From positions 1-64,000 of IMG/VR virus record IMGVR_UViG_3300035701_000023: a stretch of 64,000 nucleotides of DNA. One strand, written 5' to 3'. The notes below the pieces were generated by a model. The model did no database searches and was not told the DNA's origin. It worked only from the letters and a program-made list of their open reading frames with translations. Source of the stretch: a virus. This document shows, in pieces, positions 2,979 through 9,579 of the stretch (positions within the stretch are counted from its first letter, which is position 1; each line of letters opens with the position of its first letter). Both the position numbers and the translations under genes were made by a program.

Positions 2979-5801
2979 ATGGCAACTTCAAACAGAGTCT
3001 TTGTTTCTCCGGGTGTCTACACATCTGAGGTAGATTTAACCTTCGTCGCACAAAGTGTTGGTGTAACAACATTAGGTTTAGTAGGTGAAACATTAAAAGG
3101 ACCAGCTTTCGAACCGGTTCTAATATCAAGTTTTGACGAGTTCAAAACATATTTCGGAAACACATCCCCTGAAAAGTATGGTGACGGAAATCCAAAATAC
3201 GAATTGGGTTATGTTGCTAAGTCTTATCTACAGGAATCCAATCAACTTTTTGTAACTAGGGTATTGGGATTAACAGGTTATAAACCTTATAATACATTTG
3301 CAATTCAAACGTTGGGTGGAGTAAATGCAACATTATCGGTAACTCCAACATCAACAGGAACTACAATGATAAAAACTGGGGTAACCACAAGTCCTGTTTA
3401 CTCTGAACTTTCAGATAAATATGATGTGGATGGAAATACCATTCCAGCATATGTTAGTGGTGGTACTTGGTCAAATGATAATTGGTTTACTATTGGTCAA
3501 GTTCCAAATTCAGGTACATCGGGATTAACTGGTACATCTATTTCATCTCCGATTGGAATATATAACAATAAGAACTGGTATAATATTTATTTCCATAAAT
3601 CAGGTGGAACAGATTCAACAATTGATGCGGTTTATTCTTATTTGTTCGTATATAGTGCTTCGACATCAACATTTATTGTTACTAGATATTCATATCCAGC
3701 ATCTTTAAACACAGATTATTCTGGTGTAATAGTTGCTGCATTAAGATCAAGAGGTCGATATGTTGGACAAACATTAACTCTTGAGGTATCGTCAAGTTCT
3801 GCTCTTAGTTTTTCTTCATCAACAATTGCAACTGATCCGTTGAGTGAATTTACATTAGATGTAACAGGTTCAACAAGTGGGGCTAAATCCTTTACATGTT
3901 CAATGGATACAAATTCAACACATAGTATTACTAAAGTTTTGGGTACGAGTGTATTTGATAAAAACTATGCTGACTTCCCTGTATATGTACATGAATCATA
4001 TCCTAATTTATTAAAGAACGCATATCAACAGGGTTGGGTTAGAGGTTTGAATGTAACAAAGGTTTATCATTTGGACACTACTGAGTTTAATCGTCAATGG
4101 GACACAACATTGTCTCCAACTGTGGTTTCTGAGGTACGTGGTGGTGAGGTAGCAGATCTTTTCCAAGTAATTACAATTTCTGATGGAAACGATGCAAACA
4201 GACAGGTAAAGATTAATATTGTTAATATTAACCTTGATACCACAGAATTTGATTTATTGGTTCGTGACTTTAATGACACCGACGAAAATATGTCAATTCT
4301 TGAAAAATACACAAGATGTTCCATGAACCCAGATATGCCGGGATATATCGCAAAGAAAATTGGTACAAGTAATACAGAATATGAATTACAGTCTAAATAT
4401 ATTATGTTGGTTATAGCTGATAATGCCCCAATCGACGCTTTCCCTGCGGGATTTAAAGGATTTGTGAGTAATAGTAATGTGTCGGGATCAACATTAGGTA
4501 GTGTAGTATATAAAACACAATATTTTGATGCGGGTGATGTTGTTTATTACAATAGTGACGGATCTGAGGAAACAACAAACGGAGATAAGGTTAGAAAAGT
4601 TTGTTTGGGACTTTCTTCACAATCAGGTTTTGATTTTGATGCTGATTTGTTTACGTATAAAGGTCAATCAGCTAATGACGAAACATTTGGTTTCCACTTA
4701 TCAGTAAATGCCGCAAGTATTACTGGAACAACATATAAAACAACTCCATATGATTTGGAAGGAGTTAATAAAGATAAGTTGGATACAATTGGGTATCGTA
4801 AATTTACATTTGCGGTTTGTGGTGGTTTCGATGGTTGGGACATTTACAGAAACGTAAGAACAAATGGTGATTCCTATATATTTGGTAGAAATACCTATAT
4901 ATCTGGAAATACAACAAATGGTGGTGTGTTCAGTACGTCAGCAGGAAATTCAGATTACTATTCTTATCTAGCGGGTATTGAGACCTTCCTAAATCCTGAA
5001 GCGGTTAACATTAACGTGTTCGCAACACCGGGAATCAACTTCTATGATCACAGTTCACTTACCACACAGGCAATTGACATGATTGAGAACGACAGATCCG
5101 ACTCACTTTACATTATAAACTCACCTAACGTAACTACATCTGATGAGGTGATAAGTAATCTAGATAATCTAGGATATGATAGTAGTTATTCCGCAACATA
5201 TTGGCCTTGGATTCAAATTAGAGATCAGGACAACGCAACACAATTGTTCATTCCACCAACAGCTGAGGTTGTTAGAAACATAGCGTTAACTGATAACGTA
5301 TCCTATCCTTGGTTCGCAGTTGCTGGATATTCAAGAGGTTTGGTTAAATCAATTAAAGCCCAGAAGAAACTGACTTTGGATGAAAGAGATGAACTTTATT
5401 TGAACAGAATTAACCCGATCGCTACTTTCTCGGATACTGGTACAATCATTTGGGGTAATAAAACCCTTCAGGTTAGAGAATCAGCCCTTGACAGGATGAA
5501 TGTGAGAAGGTTACTATTGAGAGCAAGAAAATTGATATCAGCGGTATCAGTAAGGTTGTTATTTGATCAGAATGACGATCAGGTGAGAAATGAATTCTTG
5601 AGGTTAACTAATCCAATTCTTGAAGCAATTAAGAAAGAGAGAGGTCTTTATGACTTCCGTGTAACGGTTTCAAACGCACCAGAGGATTTGGATGCTAACA
5701 CGATGAGAGGTAAGATTTACATCAAACCAACTCGTTCTCTTGAGTTCATTGAATTGGAATTCATTGTTACACCAACAGGTGCATCATTTGAAAATATATA
5801 A
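2979..5801 (+). CDS. gp18: Contractile tail sheath protein, T4 gp18-like
   Basis: A 940-residue sheath subunit. The N-terminus reads RVFVSPGVYTSEVDLTF, the classic start of contractile sheath proteins that links adjacent subunits. The C-terminal third is the conserved polymerising core: INVFATPGINFYDH, YWPWIQIRDQ, PPTAEVVRNIALTD, PWFAVAGYSRG, then LNRINPIATF and a helical RLLLRARKLISA segment, ending in the strand that completes the neighbour's fold. T4 gp18 has 659 residues. The extra length lies in the middle (about 110-480), where Ser/Thr/Gly-rich beta-type sequence suggests surface-exposed inserted domains. It has its own late promoter and terminator, so it is probably monocistronic, followed by the tube gene in T4 order. 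Very confident. Confidence 0.95.
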   Translation: MATSNRVFVSPGVYTSEVDLTFVAQSVGVTTLGLVGETLKGPAFEPVLISSFDEFKTYFGNTSPEKYGDGNPKYELGYVAKSYLQESNQLFVTRVLGLTGYKPYNTFAIQTLGGVNATLSVTPTSTGTTMIKTGVTTSPVYSELSDKYDVDGNTIPAYVSGGTWSNDNWFTIGQVPNSGTSGLTGTSISSPIGIYNNKNWYNIYFHKSGGTDSTIDAVYSYLFVYSASTSTFIVTRYSYPASLNTDYSGVIVAALRSRGRYVGQTLTLEVSSSSALSFSSSTIATDPLSEFTLDVTGSTSGAKSFTCSMDTNSTHSITKVLGTSVFDKNYADFPVYVHESYPNLLKNAYQQGWVRGLNVTKVYHLDTTEFNRQWDTTLSPTVVSEVRGGEVADLFQVITISDGNDANRQVKINIVNINLDTTEFDLLVRDFNDTDENMSILEKYTRCSMNPDMPGYIAKKIGTSNTEYELQSKYIMLVIADNAPIDAFPAGFKGFVSNSNVSGSTLGSVVYKTQYFDAGDVVYYNSDGSEETTNGDKVRKVCLGLSSQSGFDFDADLFTYKGQSANDETFGFHLSVNAASITGTTYKTTPYDLEGVNKDKLDTIGYRKFTFAVCGGFDGWDIYRNVRTNGDSYIFGRNTYISGNTTNGGVFSTSAGNSDYYSYLAGIETFLNPEAVNINVFATPGINFYDHSSLTTQAIDMIENDRSDSLYIINSPNVTTSDEVISNLDNLGYDSSYSATYWPWIQIRDQDNATQLFIPPTAEVVRNIALTDNVSYPWFAVAGYSRGLVKSIKAQKKLTLDERDELYLNRINPIATFSDTGTIIWGNKTLQVRESALDRMNVRRLLLRARKLISAVSVRLLFDQNDDQVRNEFLRLTNPILEAIKKERGLYDFRVTVSNAPEDLDANTMRGKIYIKPTRSLEFIELEFIVTPTGASFENI

Positions 5802-6111: not shown

Positions 6112-6600
6112 ATGGCAGATCTTTTAATGAAAATGCCGGTTCCTTATGAACCGAAAAGAGTCAACCGATTCCTCCTTAGATTTCCTTCATCATTGGGAAT
6201 TAACGAATGGTATGTTACGTCGGCCGCTAGACCTAGTGCTAAGATAAACTCAGTACCTATTCCATTTATCAACACAGAAACATACGTTGCTGGTAGATTC
6301 GTTTGGAATGAACTTAGAGTTACCTTCAAAGACCCGATTGGACCTTCAGCTTCACAAGCGTTGATGGAATGGTTCCGTTTACATGCTGAATCTGTTACTG
6401 GTAGAATGGGTTACGCCGCAGGATATAAAAAAGACATTGAATTGGAAATGTTAGACCCAACAGGGGTTGTAATTGAAAAGTGGATCCTACAAGGAACATT
6501 CATTACTGATTTAAACTTTAATGAATTGGACTATTCAAGGGACGAACTTGCAACTATTACTGCGTCGCTTCGTATGGATCGTTGCATCCTCGTGTATTGA
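6112..6600 (+). CDS. gp19: Tail tube protein, T4 gp19-like
   Basis: A 162-residue protein, close to T4 gp19 (163 aa), that would stack as hexameric rings to form the inner tail tube around the tape measure. Recognisable features are the N-terminal PYEPKRVNRFLLRFPSSLGI, the strand pair ETYVAGRFVWNELRVTFKDPIG, the helix ALMEWFRLHAESVTGRMGYAAGYKKDIEL and the C-terminal WILQGTFITDLNFNELDYS strand pattern typical of the family. It follows the sheath gene as in T4 and has its own late promoter and its own terminator, fitting a very abundant virion protein. High confidence. Confidence 0.95.
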   Translation: MADLLMKMPVPYEPKRVNRFLLRFPSSLGINEWYVTSAARPSAKINSVPIPFINTETYVAGRFVWNELRVTFKDPIGPSASQALMEWFRLHAESVTGRMGYAAGYKKDIELEMLDPTGVVIEKWILQGTFITDLNFNELDYSRDELATITASLRMDRCILVY

Positions 6601-6621
6601 TTTTTTCTTAACACCAAATAT

Positions 6622-6670
6622 AAACCAGTAATTACTTTAGGGATCATTCCCGGGAGATTACTGGTTTTTT
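6622..6670 (+). terminator. Rho-independent terminator after tube gene
   Basis: AAACCAGTAAT (6622-6632) pairs with ATTACTGGTTT (6657-6667), an 11-bp stem followed by TTT. The 24-base loop holds a smaller self-complementary CCCGGG. Confidence 0.85.
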
Positions 6671-6718
6671 GTTGCGGGAAACTTTACAATACACTACTTA
6701 TTAAGTAAATTATACATT

Positions 6719-7474
6719 ATGGACGAATACAGAATTGACCCAACAATCGCTTACGATGTTGTTACCCTACCTTCGGGAGGAATCTACTACGAAAATAAAA
6801 AGAAATCAGTCAAAGTGGCATATCTAACTGCAACAGATGAGAACATCCTTTCTTCACCAAACTTGGTAGCAACGAATGGTGTTATCGATGAACTTATAAA
6901 GAGGAAAATTCTTGATAGAGACATCCAAGGTGATGATCTGATTGAGGAAGATAGACAAGCCATTCTTATTTTTTTAAGAAACACTGCTTGGGGTTCAGAG
7001 TATAATGTATCAGCTATTGATCCAAAAACTGATAAAGAATTTCCATTTAAGGTTGATCTTTCGGTGTTAAAAACAAAAGAATTCAAACTTGTGGAGGATT
7101 CAAATGGGGAATTTCCATATCATTTTGAGAAAAGTAATGTGAACATAACATTTAAATTTCTAACAAGAAAACAGGAAAAAGAGTTAAAAGAATTAATAGA
7201 TAGTTGGACAGATGAAACTCTCGGAGTTCCTCCACGATCATCCAAACGATTGGAAATGATGATCAAATCTGTTGCAGGTAGTCGGGATCAAATGAATATT
7301 CATAATCTTATTGAAAGACTACCAATTAAAGATGCTCAAGATTTCAAGAAATTTGTTAATGAAAATAAACCCGGATTAGACTTAACCCAAAATGTAAAAA
7401 CCCCGTCAGGAGATATAATCCAAGTTAATATTGGATTCGGGGTAGAATTCTTTCGCCCTTTCTACGGATTATAA
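6719..7474 (+). CDS. gp26: Baseplate hub assembly protein / tail assembly chaperone, T4 gp26-like
   Basis: A 251-residue member of the T4 gp26/gp51 baseplate family. Family marks are VTLPSGGIYYENKKKSVKVAYLTATDENILSSPNL near the N-terminus, then ELIKRKIL and a LIEEDRQAILIFLRNTAWGSEYNV segment. T4 gp26 and gp51 act in assembly of the baseplate hub. In this position, between tube and tape measure, many tailed phages encode a pair of tail assembly chaperones made by ribosomal frameshifting. Here the frame stops at 7472-7474 (TAA), and the expected C-terminal gp51-like segment is present in the +1 frame immediately afterwards (7473-7604). The family call is good; the chaperone role is inferred from position. 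Confidence 0.75.
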   Translation: MDEYRIDPTIAYDVVTLPSGGIYYENKKKSVKVAYLTATDENILSSPNLVATNGVIDELIKRKILDRDIQGDDLIEEDRQAILIFLRNTAWGSEYNVSAIDPKTDKEFPFKVDLSVLKTKEFKLVEDSNGEFPYHFEKSNVNITFKFLTRKQEKELKELIDSWTDETLGVPPRSSKRLEMMIKSVAGSRDQMNIHNLIERLPIKDAQDFKKFVNENKPGLDLTQNVKTPSGDIIQVNIGFGVEFFRPFYGL

Positions 7475-7604
7475 AAAAACACAACTTACGGAAATATTGT
7501 TCTTAATTAAAAGAGGGTTCTCATGGGGGGACATTCTTTCTATGCCTGTATATGTGAGAAGGTATTATGTTGAGTATATTCTTGAATTAGAAAATTCAAG
7601 TTAA
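7473..7604 (+). CDS. gp51-like C-terminal segment in the +1 frame (possible frameshift product)
   Basis: Directly downstream of the gp26-like stop, the +1 frame is open from 7446 to the TAA at 7602-7604. It encodes KKTQLTEILFLI, then RGFSWGDILSMPVYVRRYY and a VEYILELE helix. The G-F-S-W-x-D-I-x-x-M-P-x-x-x-R-R-Y-Y pattern is typical of the C-terminal part of tail-assembly chaperone and gp26/gp51 proteins. There is no ATG that would give this segment; TTG at 7497 is the only near-cognate start ahead of the motif. The junction reads GGA TTA TAA AAA AAC. Either the ribosome shifts +1 at or before the stop, or it reinitiates, or a base is missing in this genome. Coordinates give the region added by a +1 shift at T7472. 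Confidence 0.55.
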   Translation, partial: KKTQLTEILFLIKRGFSWGDILSMPVYVRRYYVEYILELENSS

Positions 7605-7617: not shown

Positions 7618-9579
7618 ATGAATCAAGAACTATTAAGATTAGCAAGAGCACGAAACAGTTCCTTGTTTATTAGTACATATCTCTCATTAAATCCGGGACA
7701 CACTAACACTCAAGCGTCAAGTGCATATAATGGATATCTTTCACAAATTGCTGGAGGAAATGGCGGAGGAACAGGTGGTGGTTATACTCCCCCACCCGCA
7801 AACAACAATGGTGGAGCTGGTGTTGGGGGTGGTGGATGGTTAACAACCATTGGATCAACACTAAACGATGGATTTAAAGGTATTGTCGGTCTTACAGAAA
7901 AATTTTACAGAACACAGTTTGGACAAAATAAAGAACTTGGTGGTCCTGATAATAATGTGGGTCAAAAAATATTAGATCTATTACAAAGTGGTGGATTTAA
8001 TCCACTTAAATTAATTGGTGGTGGTTTTGTTGAAATTGAAAATGAAATTCTTGATCAGTTAACCAGAGAATCTCAATTAAAAAGTGAGATAAACTCAAAA
8101 AGTACTTTAACATTAGAACTATCAAAAGACTTAAGAGAAGATATTTTAGAATCATCAATAAATGCTTCTAAATTTGGATTTACACTTAACCAACTTGGTG
8201 AATTATATACGGGTTTAGCTGAAAAATCTGGTAGATATGCATTAATTAATAAGGAGACAATGGATTTAGCTGCACCAGTGGCCGCAACTTTATCCATGAG
8301 TATGGAACAACTATCAGATACAATTAATGAATTTGAAAAAGTTGGTAAGGGTGCTAATGACACACTTGAAACTATATTTGAAGTTGAGAAAAGATCAATG
8401 GTTCTTGGGTTAAATGGTAAAAAAATAGTTGCAGATTTACAAACAAATATTGGAAAATTAAACGAATACGGATTTAAAAAAGGGGTTGAGGGATTAGCTG
8501 AAATGACGAGAAAGGCCGTTGAATTCAGAATGAGTATGGAGGAATCATTTAAAATTGCCGATAAGGTAATGAATCCAGAGGGTGCGTTAGAGTTAACGGC
8601 AAATTTACAGGTATTAGGTGGAGCAATTGGTGATTTTAATGATCCACTTAAACTAATGTATATGGCAACAAATAATGTTGAGGGATTACAAGATGCGTTA
8701 ATTGATGCATCAAAATCTCTAGCAACATATAATGAGGAGCAAGGTAGATTTGAAATTACAGGGATTAATCTAAGACGAGCTAAAGAAATGGCAACTCAAT
8801 TGGGTGTTTCTTATCAAGAATTGGCAAAGGGTTCAATAGCGGCCGCTGAAAGATCTAATGCTGCAACGTCATTAATGATGAGTGGATTACAAATGAAAGA
8901 TGACGATAAAGAACTTCTTTTAAACTTATCAAGAATGGAAAAGGGTGAAATGGTTATAAAAATACCACAAACCATTGCTAGTAGATTTGAAGGTAAAACA
9001 GAAGTTAGACTTGACCAAATGACTGAAGGGTTGAAAAAGGAATTAATAGCAAATGCCGAAGCCATAAAAGGAATGAAACCTGAAGATATGGCTATGGCAC
9101 AATTAACTGAGACACAAAAGATGGCTATGTATTTAGAATCAATTGCCGCTTGGGGAAAAAGAAGAGGAGTACAAATATTCAGAGGAGCATTAGAAGGATC
9201 GGGGTTACAGGGTAAAATGCAAGATAAATATAGTGACATAATCAAATATAGTAATGAAATAAAACCCACAATAAAAGACGTAAACTTTCAGCAAAATATT
9301 AAAGTGAAAACCGAAGAAGGTATTGATAATTTAAAAAAAATACCCGAAAGATTAAAACAAAAGGGTAAAAAAATATTAAACGATGCAGGTGATTGGATAG
9401 AAGATAATTTAGGTATAGGTAAAGTTGATGTTAAACACACACACGAACATATCTTCAGAACACCAAATCTTGTTGATAACATTTCAAGAGAAATGATTAA
9501 AGGTAATATGATGATGACCGAAGAACCAAATCCAAGAGGATATCTTGGTAAAAATAAAATGAATAATAATTATGTTTAA
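7618..9579 (+). CDS. Tape measure-like tail protein
   Basis: A 653-residue, mostly helical protein directly after the chaperone-like pair, the standard position of the tape measure. The N-terminus (about 45-77) is an unusual Gly/Pro/Asn-rich linker. Residues about 140-560 are long amphipathic helices with repeated Ala/Leu/Glu-rich segments, as expected for a rod in the tail lumen. T4's equivalent is gp29 (590 aa). By the common rule of about 0.15 nm per residue it would fit a tail near 100 nm. The C-terminus carries KVDVKHTHEHIFRTPN, seen in other large-phage tape measures as the segment before the last helices. Function is inferred from position and composition, not from a catalytic motif. 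Confidence 0.7.
   Translation: MNQELLRLARARNSSLFISTYLSLNPGHTNTQASSAYNGYLSQIAGGNGGGTGGGYTPPPANNNGGAGVGGGGWLTTIGSTLNDGFKGIVGLTEKFYRTQFGQNKELGGPDNNVGQKILDLLQSGGFNPLKLIGGGFVEIENEILDQLTRESQLKSEINSKSTLTLELSKDLREDILESSINASKFGFTLNQLGELYTGLAEKSGRYALINKETMDLAAPVAATLSMSMEQLSDTINEFEKVGKGANDTLETIFEVEKRSMVLGLNGKKIVADLQTNIGKLNEYGFKKGVEGLAEMTRKAVEFRMSMEESFKIADKVMNPEGALELTANLQVLGGAIGDFNDPLKLMYMATNNVEGLQDALIDASKSLATYNEEQGRFEITGINLRRAKEMATQLGVSYQELAKGSIAAAERSNAATSLMMSGLQMKDDDKELLLNLSRMEKGEMVIKIPQTIASRFEGKTEVRLDQMTEGLKKELIANAEAIKGMKPEDMAMAQLTETQKMAMYLESIAAWGKRRGVQIFRGALEGSGLQGKMQDKYSDIIKYSNEIKPTIKDVNFQQNIKVKTEEGIDNLKKIPERLKQKGKKILNDAGDWIEDNLGIGKVDVKHTHEHIFRTPNLVDNISREMIKGNMMMTEEPNPRGYLGKNKMNNNYV

Follow-up and report, generated by a model that had tools for sequence, protein, structure and literature searches.

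Overlapping gp26-like and gp51-like frames at a viral tail locus and a probable programmed +1 frameshift between them

The tail locus and its two overlapping frames

The window analyzed here is the whole 64,000-nucleotide stretch at positions 1 to 64,000 of a 68,302-base IMG/VR virus record (IMGVR_UViG_3300035701_000023), and it contains a run of tail genes whose features are collected in Table 1. ORF1 belongs to the T4 gp26 family according to both Pfam (PF12322, T4_baseplate; 35.2 bits against a cut-off of 24.5) and a PHROG profile search (phrog_150, baseplate hub; E 1.2e-11). Its AlphaFold model (pLDDT 92) gave 55 Foldseek matches at E <= 0.001 in BFVD, to the viral gp26 family and with E values down to 3e-27. 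As read in the preliminary description, this frame ends GGA TTA TAA at 7474.

A second open stretch, ORF2, overlaps the end of ORF1 in the +1 frame and translates as NSFALSTDYKKTQLTEILFLIKRGFSWGDILSMPVYVRRYYVEYILELENSS. It is bordered directly 5' by a TAG at 7443-7445 and closed by the TAA at 7602-7604, and the part that would be translated after a shift (7455-7601) amounts to about 50 codons. The earlier remark that this module has no ATG of its own holds up to the MP motif: the sole ATG, at 7542, encodes the M of LSMP. A single TTG occurs at 7497. Because the TAG blocks the +1 frame on one side and ORF1 terminates on the other, any change of frame is confined to 7446-7474.

Table 1. Features of the tail locus in the window, with the basis of each assignment.
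Feature	Position	Strand	Basis or remark
Tail sheath protein (gp18-like)	2979..5801	+	phrog_23, E 3.9e-61
Tail tube protein (gp19-like), immediately 5' of ORF1	6112..6600	+	phrog_4542 tail tube, E 1.6e-24
ORF1, putative short ('G-like') product, T4 gp26 family, 251 aa	6719..7474	+	PF12322, phrog_150, AlphaFold/Foldseek
GGG Gly codon, 4 codons 5' of the slip codon, outside the two-frame overlap	7439..7441	+	clade-invariant
ORF2, +1-frame open stretch, gp51-like C-terminal module	7446..7604	+	profile match, omega
Candidate +1 frameshift site TTC TTT CGC (E-, P- and A-site codons)	7448..7456	+	sequence comparison
Candidate P-site slip codon TTT	7451..7453	+	UUU to UUC re-pairing of tRNA-Phe proposed
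Putative skipped base C, first base of the rare CGC	7454	+	next base C or T in 155/155
Candidate A-site codon CGC	7454..7456	+	joint-rarest sense codon
ORF1 zero-frame stop; termination here would give the short product	7472..7474	+
ORF in tape-measure position	7618..9579	+	position only

The overlapping pair lies between the tail tube gene and an ORF assigned to the tape measure by position only. A tape measure had been described as following the pair: the position agrees with that in Flavobacterium phage immuto, where a tail tape measure protein is annotated at the equivalent place, but the ORF found no match in the profile library searched. Elsewhere in the window, an ORF at 139-903 begins like GIY-YIG homing endonucleases, a likeness recognized by eye only.

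Judged by omega values of 0.08-0.09 beyond the ORF1 stop in three clades, ORF2 is under purifying selection. Profile comparison further indicates homology between ORF2 and the C-terminal gp51 module: the ORF2 profile hits the gp51 module of cyanophages at 93% (E 3.7e-7), and that module in turn matches the C-terminus of T4 gp51 at 93% (E 3.1e-7). The likeness to T4 gp51 rests on the cyanophage intermediate, since the direct match is weak (8%, E 0.004). When ORF2 was read through the shift, the phrog_150 score rose from 45.6 to 49.8 bits, and the match, which had ended at profile position 233, reached 270. By itself, ORF2 had neither a Pfam or PHROG match nor a solid tblastn match among named phages, and a sequence search of solved structures returned chance matches only.

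Conservation of the layout and the candidate shift site

Relatives were collected from named phages and IMG/VR, giving more than 200 loci, of which 221 had enough DNA for a frame test in which a frame counted as open if it continued for at least 90 nt beyond the ORF1 stop. The second part was open in the +1 frame at 220 of the 221 loci and in the other frame at 16, a difference that excludes a chance layout; at none were both parts in one continuous frame. These loci are partly copies of one contig and not all independent, and they comprise 185 distinct ORF1 sequences. A one-base sequencing error, which the preliminary description had asked to be checked, is likewise excluded, since 220 relatives keep the +1 layout. 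All 13 further loci from genome assemblies were +1, as were Rhodothermus phage RM378, Microcystis phage Mel-JY01, immuto, Listeria phage LIS04 and Streptococcus phage GXN1. The sole exception to +1 among the 221, the 595-kb phage record LR756511.1, carries the C-terminal module in the -1 frame, as an ORF of its own with an ATG start.

The preliminary description had proposed a programmed +1 shift, giving a gp26-gp51 fusion, across the TTA-TAA stop. We find strong support for such a shift but not for that location: although relatives keep the two-frame layout, a conserved TTA-TAA context was not found. Comparison of the sequences instead strongly supports a shift at TTC TTT CGC, seven codons 5' of the stop. 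With a +1 step after the second Phe of EFF, the predicted fusion of the window reads EFF/ALSTDYKK (the slash marking the step), and the same step yields SFL/GLTPEYRAGL in immuto, NFF/GLSNEYRL in Mel-JY01 and FF/VLSTAYRNA in the marine clade, so that FFxL[ST]x[DE]Y forms one conserved motif spanning the junction in the main clades. The zero-frame tails differ among relatives (RPFYGL, WPDAGV or WPK, each followed by the stop), with TAA, TAG or TGA placed 4 to 9 codons past the shift, and the NTA-TAR seen at the stop is coding for [DE]-Y-[KR] in the +1 frame.

The codons TTY TTT CGN are conserved in the window clade, the marine clade and most Firmicute-phage relatives, and the immuto clade has TTT TTT TGG or TTT CTT TGG. 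Of 162 representatives, 133 have TTT as the slip codon and 7 have TTC, compared with a TTT share of 74% in the rest of ORF1 (P 1e-10). In the window clade, 43 of 44 members have TTT, the single TTC (L008) being only apparent and due to a misplaced match; the sister clade has TTT in all 33, and the background TTT frequency is about 80%. The next base is a pyrimidine in every distinct ORF1 of three clades (Table 1). CGC accounts for 2 of the 6215 codons of the window's large ORFs, the copy at the site included, and TTYTTTCGNCC occurs once in the 68-kb record, at 7448. The site thereby has the make-up of UUU_CGN sites, namely UUU in the P site, then C, with a CGN Arg codon in the A site. The constraint on TTT and the following pyrimidine fits slippage of the P-site tRNA-Phe from UUU to UUC with an A-site codon that is read slowly. 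In one subclade (L219, L221, L225 and L232) the site reads TTA TTT/TTC AAT CCC AGT, and slippage may take place at CCC_A instead.

The Gly codon upstream of the slip codon is GGG in 43/43 window-clade ORF1s versus a 10% background, and in 41/62 of the immuto clade; it may act as a stimulator, as a ribosome-pausing or anti-Shine-Dalgarno element. Fold z-scores for the sites of the window, L038 and L002 ranged from -0.9 to +1.1, and no downstream stimulatory RNA structure was found there; the absence of an obligatory downstream structure is as expected of UUU_CGN sites.

The -1 half of the family and the two T4 genes

A phrog_150 search of named T4-like phages detected another half of the family, in which the gp51 module overlaps the end of gp26 in the -1 frame. 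This arrangement was found in S-PM2, P-SSM2, HTVC008M, phiM12 and Cr30, likewise in KVP40 and Atu_ph07, and in 78 of 78 IMG/VR cyanophage-clade loci, none of which was +1. The cyanophage genes (S-PM2, P-SSM2, HTVC008M) have the modules and the two junction Phe codons in common with the window phage, but their C-terminal module lies at -1 after U_UUU_UUC and is annotated as a second gene, whereas the window phage is +1. At the cyanophage-clade junctions listed, T_TTT_TTC (U_UUU_UUC) falls on the same two Phe codons, and gp26 and a short gp51 would be joined by such a -1 site in S-PM2 (150471-151363), P-SSM2 (6495-7390) and loci L294-L373. A GAGGGA-like sequence often stands about 10 nt upstream, at a dnaX-like spacing. 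For S-PM2, the predicted junction-spanning peptide is SFFRISMFYNNLENYYR. Cyanophage gp51 is reported to lack the first ~200 residues of T4 gp51, the cause not being given (Sullivan et al. 2010, PMC3037559); on the reading proposed here, the missing residues would be gp26 itself, supplied by frameshifting.

T4 has the short and long forms as two genes with no frameshift, where the window phage has one gene. T4 gp26 is the short form, ending in EFFELL before its stop, and gp51 is the long form, full length in frame. Both ORF1 and its predicted fusion belong to the same family as these proteins, T4 gp51 consisting of a gp26-like fold plus the C-terminal module. A model of T4-type gp51 shows a gp26-like fold extended by helices at the C-terminus, with matches to gp26 proteins at E 2e-9. 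In the tree, T4 gp26 and gp51, which are separate paralogues, group together (100/83) beside KVP40, and a 100/100 branch divides the T4/KVP40 side from the +1 side. Given this grouping and the gp26-like build of T4-type gp51, duplication most likely took over from frameshifting in the T4 lineage. Locus L234 is -1, consistent with its position in the tree; Atu_ph07 is placed with the +1 side, by a branch that is long and unreliable.

We consider it reasonably likely that gp26/gp51 is the universal tail-assembly chaperone system of the T4 superfamily, using, at one and the same pair of Phe codons, +1 shifts (UUU_CGN, UUU_UGG) in one half, -1 shifts (U_UUU_UUC) in the other and gene duplication in T4.

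Proposed mechanism, tail function and alternatives

The window phage, which is related to T4, very probably uses a +1 frameshift, and we regard it with high confidence as the best overall explanation that one gene gives, through this shift, a gp26-gp51 fusion and hence a chaperone pair. Comparison among relatives establishes the two-frame architecture, the site and the selection; for the slippage itself and the ratio of products, we infer the following. Most ribosomes would terminate at 7474 and yield the short gp26-like protein. With the slowly read CGC in the A site, the P-site tRNA-Phe would in some cases slip one base forward, from UUU to UUC, so that C7454 is skipped and reading goes on in the +1 frame to 7604, giving a gp26-gp51 fusion of 294 aa. 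Unstimulated UUU_CGN sites shift only a few per cent of the time.

The influenza A PA-X site, UCC_UUU_CGU, has been shown experimentally to operate by P-site slippage on UUU_C with CGN in the A site (PMC3498833). PA-X and the plant amalgaviruses (PMC3498833, PMC5052127) resemble the window in having a P-site UUU with C as the next base, a CGN codon in the A site and no clear downstream stimulator, but they concern eukaryotic viruses and unrelated genes, whereas the window is from a bacterial virus with UUU_UGG and CUU_UGG variants among its relatives. Shifts of -1, -2 or +1 are all known from tail chaperone genes (PMC5009743), +1 having been proposed for haloarchaeal HSTV-2 and HF1-like viruses (PMC5009743, PMC7230728). 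The preliminary description had set a +1 shift apart from the usual -1 slippery site; the direction stands, but in light of these viruses it is not unprecedented. The HF1-like myoviruses are close in kind, with +1 tail chaperone genes and a conserved TTT-CGC proposed as the site, as here (PMC7230728), although their host is archaeal. Since the HF2 genome had no match to the gp26 profile, this likeness is apparently convergent.

With respect to function, the lambda G/GT and P2 E/E' pairs are encoded, like the pair described here, between the tail tube and tape measure genes (PMC5009743), but are made by a -1 rather than a +1 shift. The known chaperone families showed no demonstrable similarity to the ORF1 family (PF12322, phrog_150) in our searches. 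In a fold search of the PDB, the HK97 tail assembly chaperone gp13 (2ob9) ranked second for ORF1, with a non-significant score (E 1.6, probability 0.21). Conservation of both the frame relation and the shift site among relatives, as seen here, is what a chaperone pair would call for. Frameshifted tail assembly chaperone pairs were reportedly treated by Xu, Hendrix and Duda in 2004. By analogy with lambda and P2, both forms, short and long, would act in assembly by binding the tape measure protein and bringing in subunits of the tail tube. The chaperone role is put forward from gene position and from homology to T4 gp26 and gp51. Both T4 proteins are classed with the hub assembly chaperones, and gp51 is described as an essential protein that is missing from the particle and whose function is unknown (PMC3004832). 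This classification, taken with the position between tube and tape measure, suggests that the T4 superfamily has its equivalent of the lambda G/GT pair in gp26/gp51. In Citrobacter phage Moon (KM236240.1, 116606-118244; L384), gp27 and gp28 are annotated as a tape measure chaperone and a GT-like fusion, an annotation that conflicts with gp26/gp51 as the G/GT pair.

The fusion could alternatively be real but a structural hub subunit with an extension, as in the T7 and T3 capsids or the Listeria tail, with no chaperone pair involved. Baseplate hub subunit is indeed the usual annotation of gp26, and genetic work puts gp26 in the T4 hub (PMC3004832). We nevertheless consider this unlikely, because T4 gp51 is needed for assembly yet missing from the particle, gp26 is listed with the chaperones (PMC3004832), and the location of the genes, between tube and tape measure, is that of G/GT pairs.

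The kind of system proposed is already known, both as UUU_CGN +1 sites and as +1 tail chaperones. Three aspects appear to be new: the occurrence of such a system in the gp26/gp51 family, a homologous site at which the shift changes between +1 and -1, and its replacement by duplication in T4. A literature search, for which subscription journals were mostly out of reach, found no paper naming a gp26/gp51 frameshift. If gp26/gp51 is such a pair, the unexplained essentiality of T4 gp51, the truncated gp51 of cyanophages and the assignment of Moon gp27/gp28 would all be accounted for, and T4 tail assembly would gain a hypothesis that can be tested directly. The site, conserved across hundreds of related viruses, would then represent a natural experiment in which one homologous position changes between +1 and -1 and is finally replaced by duplication. 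Hundreds of records that list a short gp51 gene would then have to be re-annotated to show a frameshift product.

The remaining alternatives concern how ORF2 comes to be translated. It might be translated independently, from the TTG at 7497 or a non-standard start and perhaps coupled to termination of ORF1, giving a free gp51-like mini-protein; short gp51 genes whose ATG lies close to the gp26 stop are indeed annotated in cyanophage and KVP40 records. However, ATG, GTG and TTG are all absent from the relevant stretch in 13 of 44 window-clade and 18 of 78 immuto-clade ORF1s, and from the vicinity of the stop at 15 of 78 cyanophage-clade loci. Conservation also begins 5' of any such start, with FFxLSx[DE]Y and the frame overlap kept and the codons preceding the TTG constrained in both frames, and an independent start leaves unexplained why the module keeps strictly to +1 in one clade and to -1 in the other. 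We therefore judge this explanation quite improbable.

Very little probability attaches to a +1 shift at the TTA-TAA stop. This position falls inside the permitted interval, and pausing at a stop codon stimulates +1 shifting in prfB, but a slip from UUA to UAU would not re-pair, the identity and distance of the stop vary among relatives, and the conserved FFxL[ST]x[DE]Y would no longer be read if the shift took place there. A -2 shift at the preferred site, adding one residue, would arrive in the identical frame and is used by Mu gpGT (PMC5009743). At TTC TTT C, however, UUU moved two bases back would not re-pair, whereas UUU to UUC improves pairing, and the influenza UUU_CGU site was found by mass spectrometry to shift +1 and not -2 (PMC3498833), so that we hold this route to be very improbable as well. 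Finally, transcriptional slippage is scarcely credible, because although many relatives have 6-7 consecutive T at the site, the longest T run at the window site is three (TTCTTTC), and TTTCTTTGG relatives are alike with the layout unchanged.
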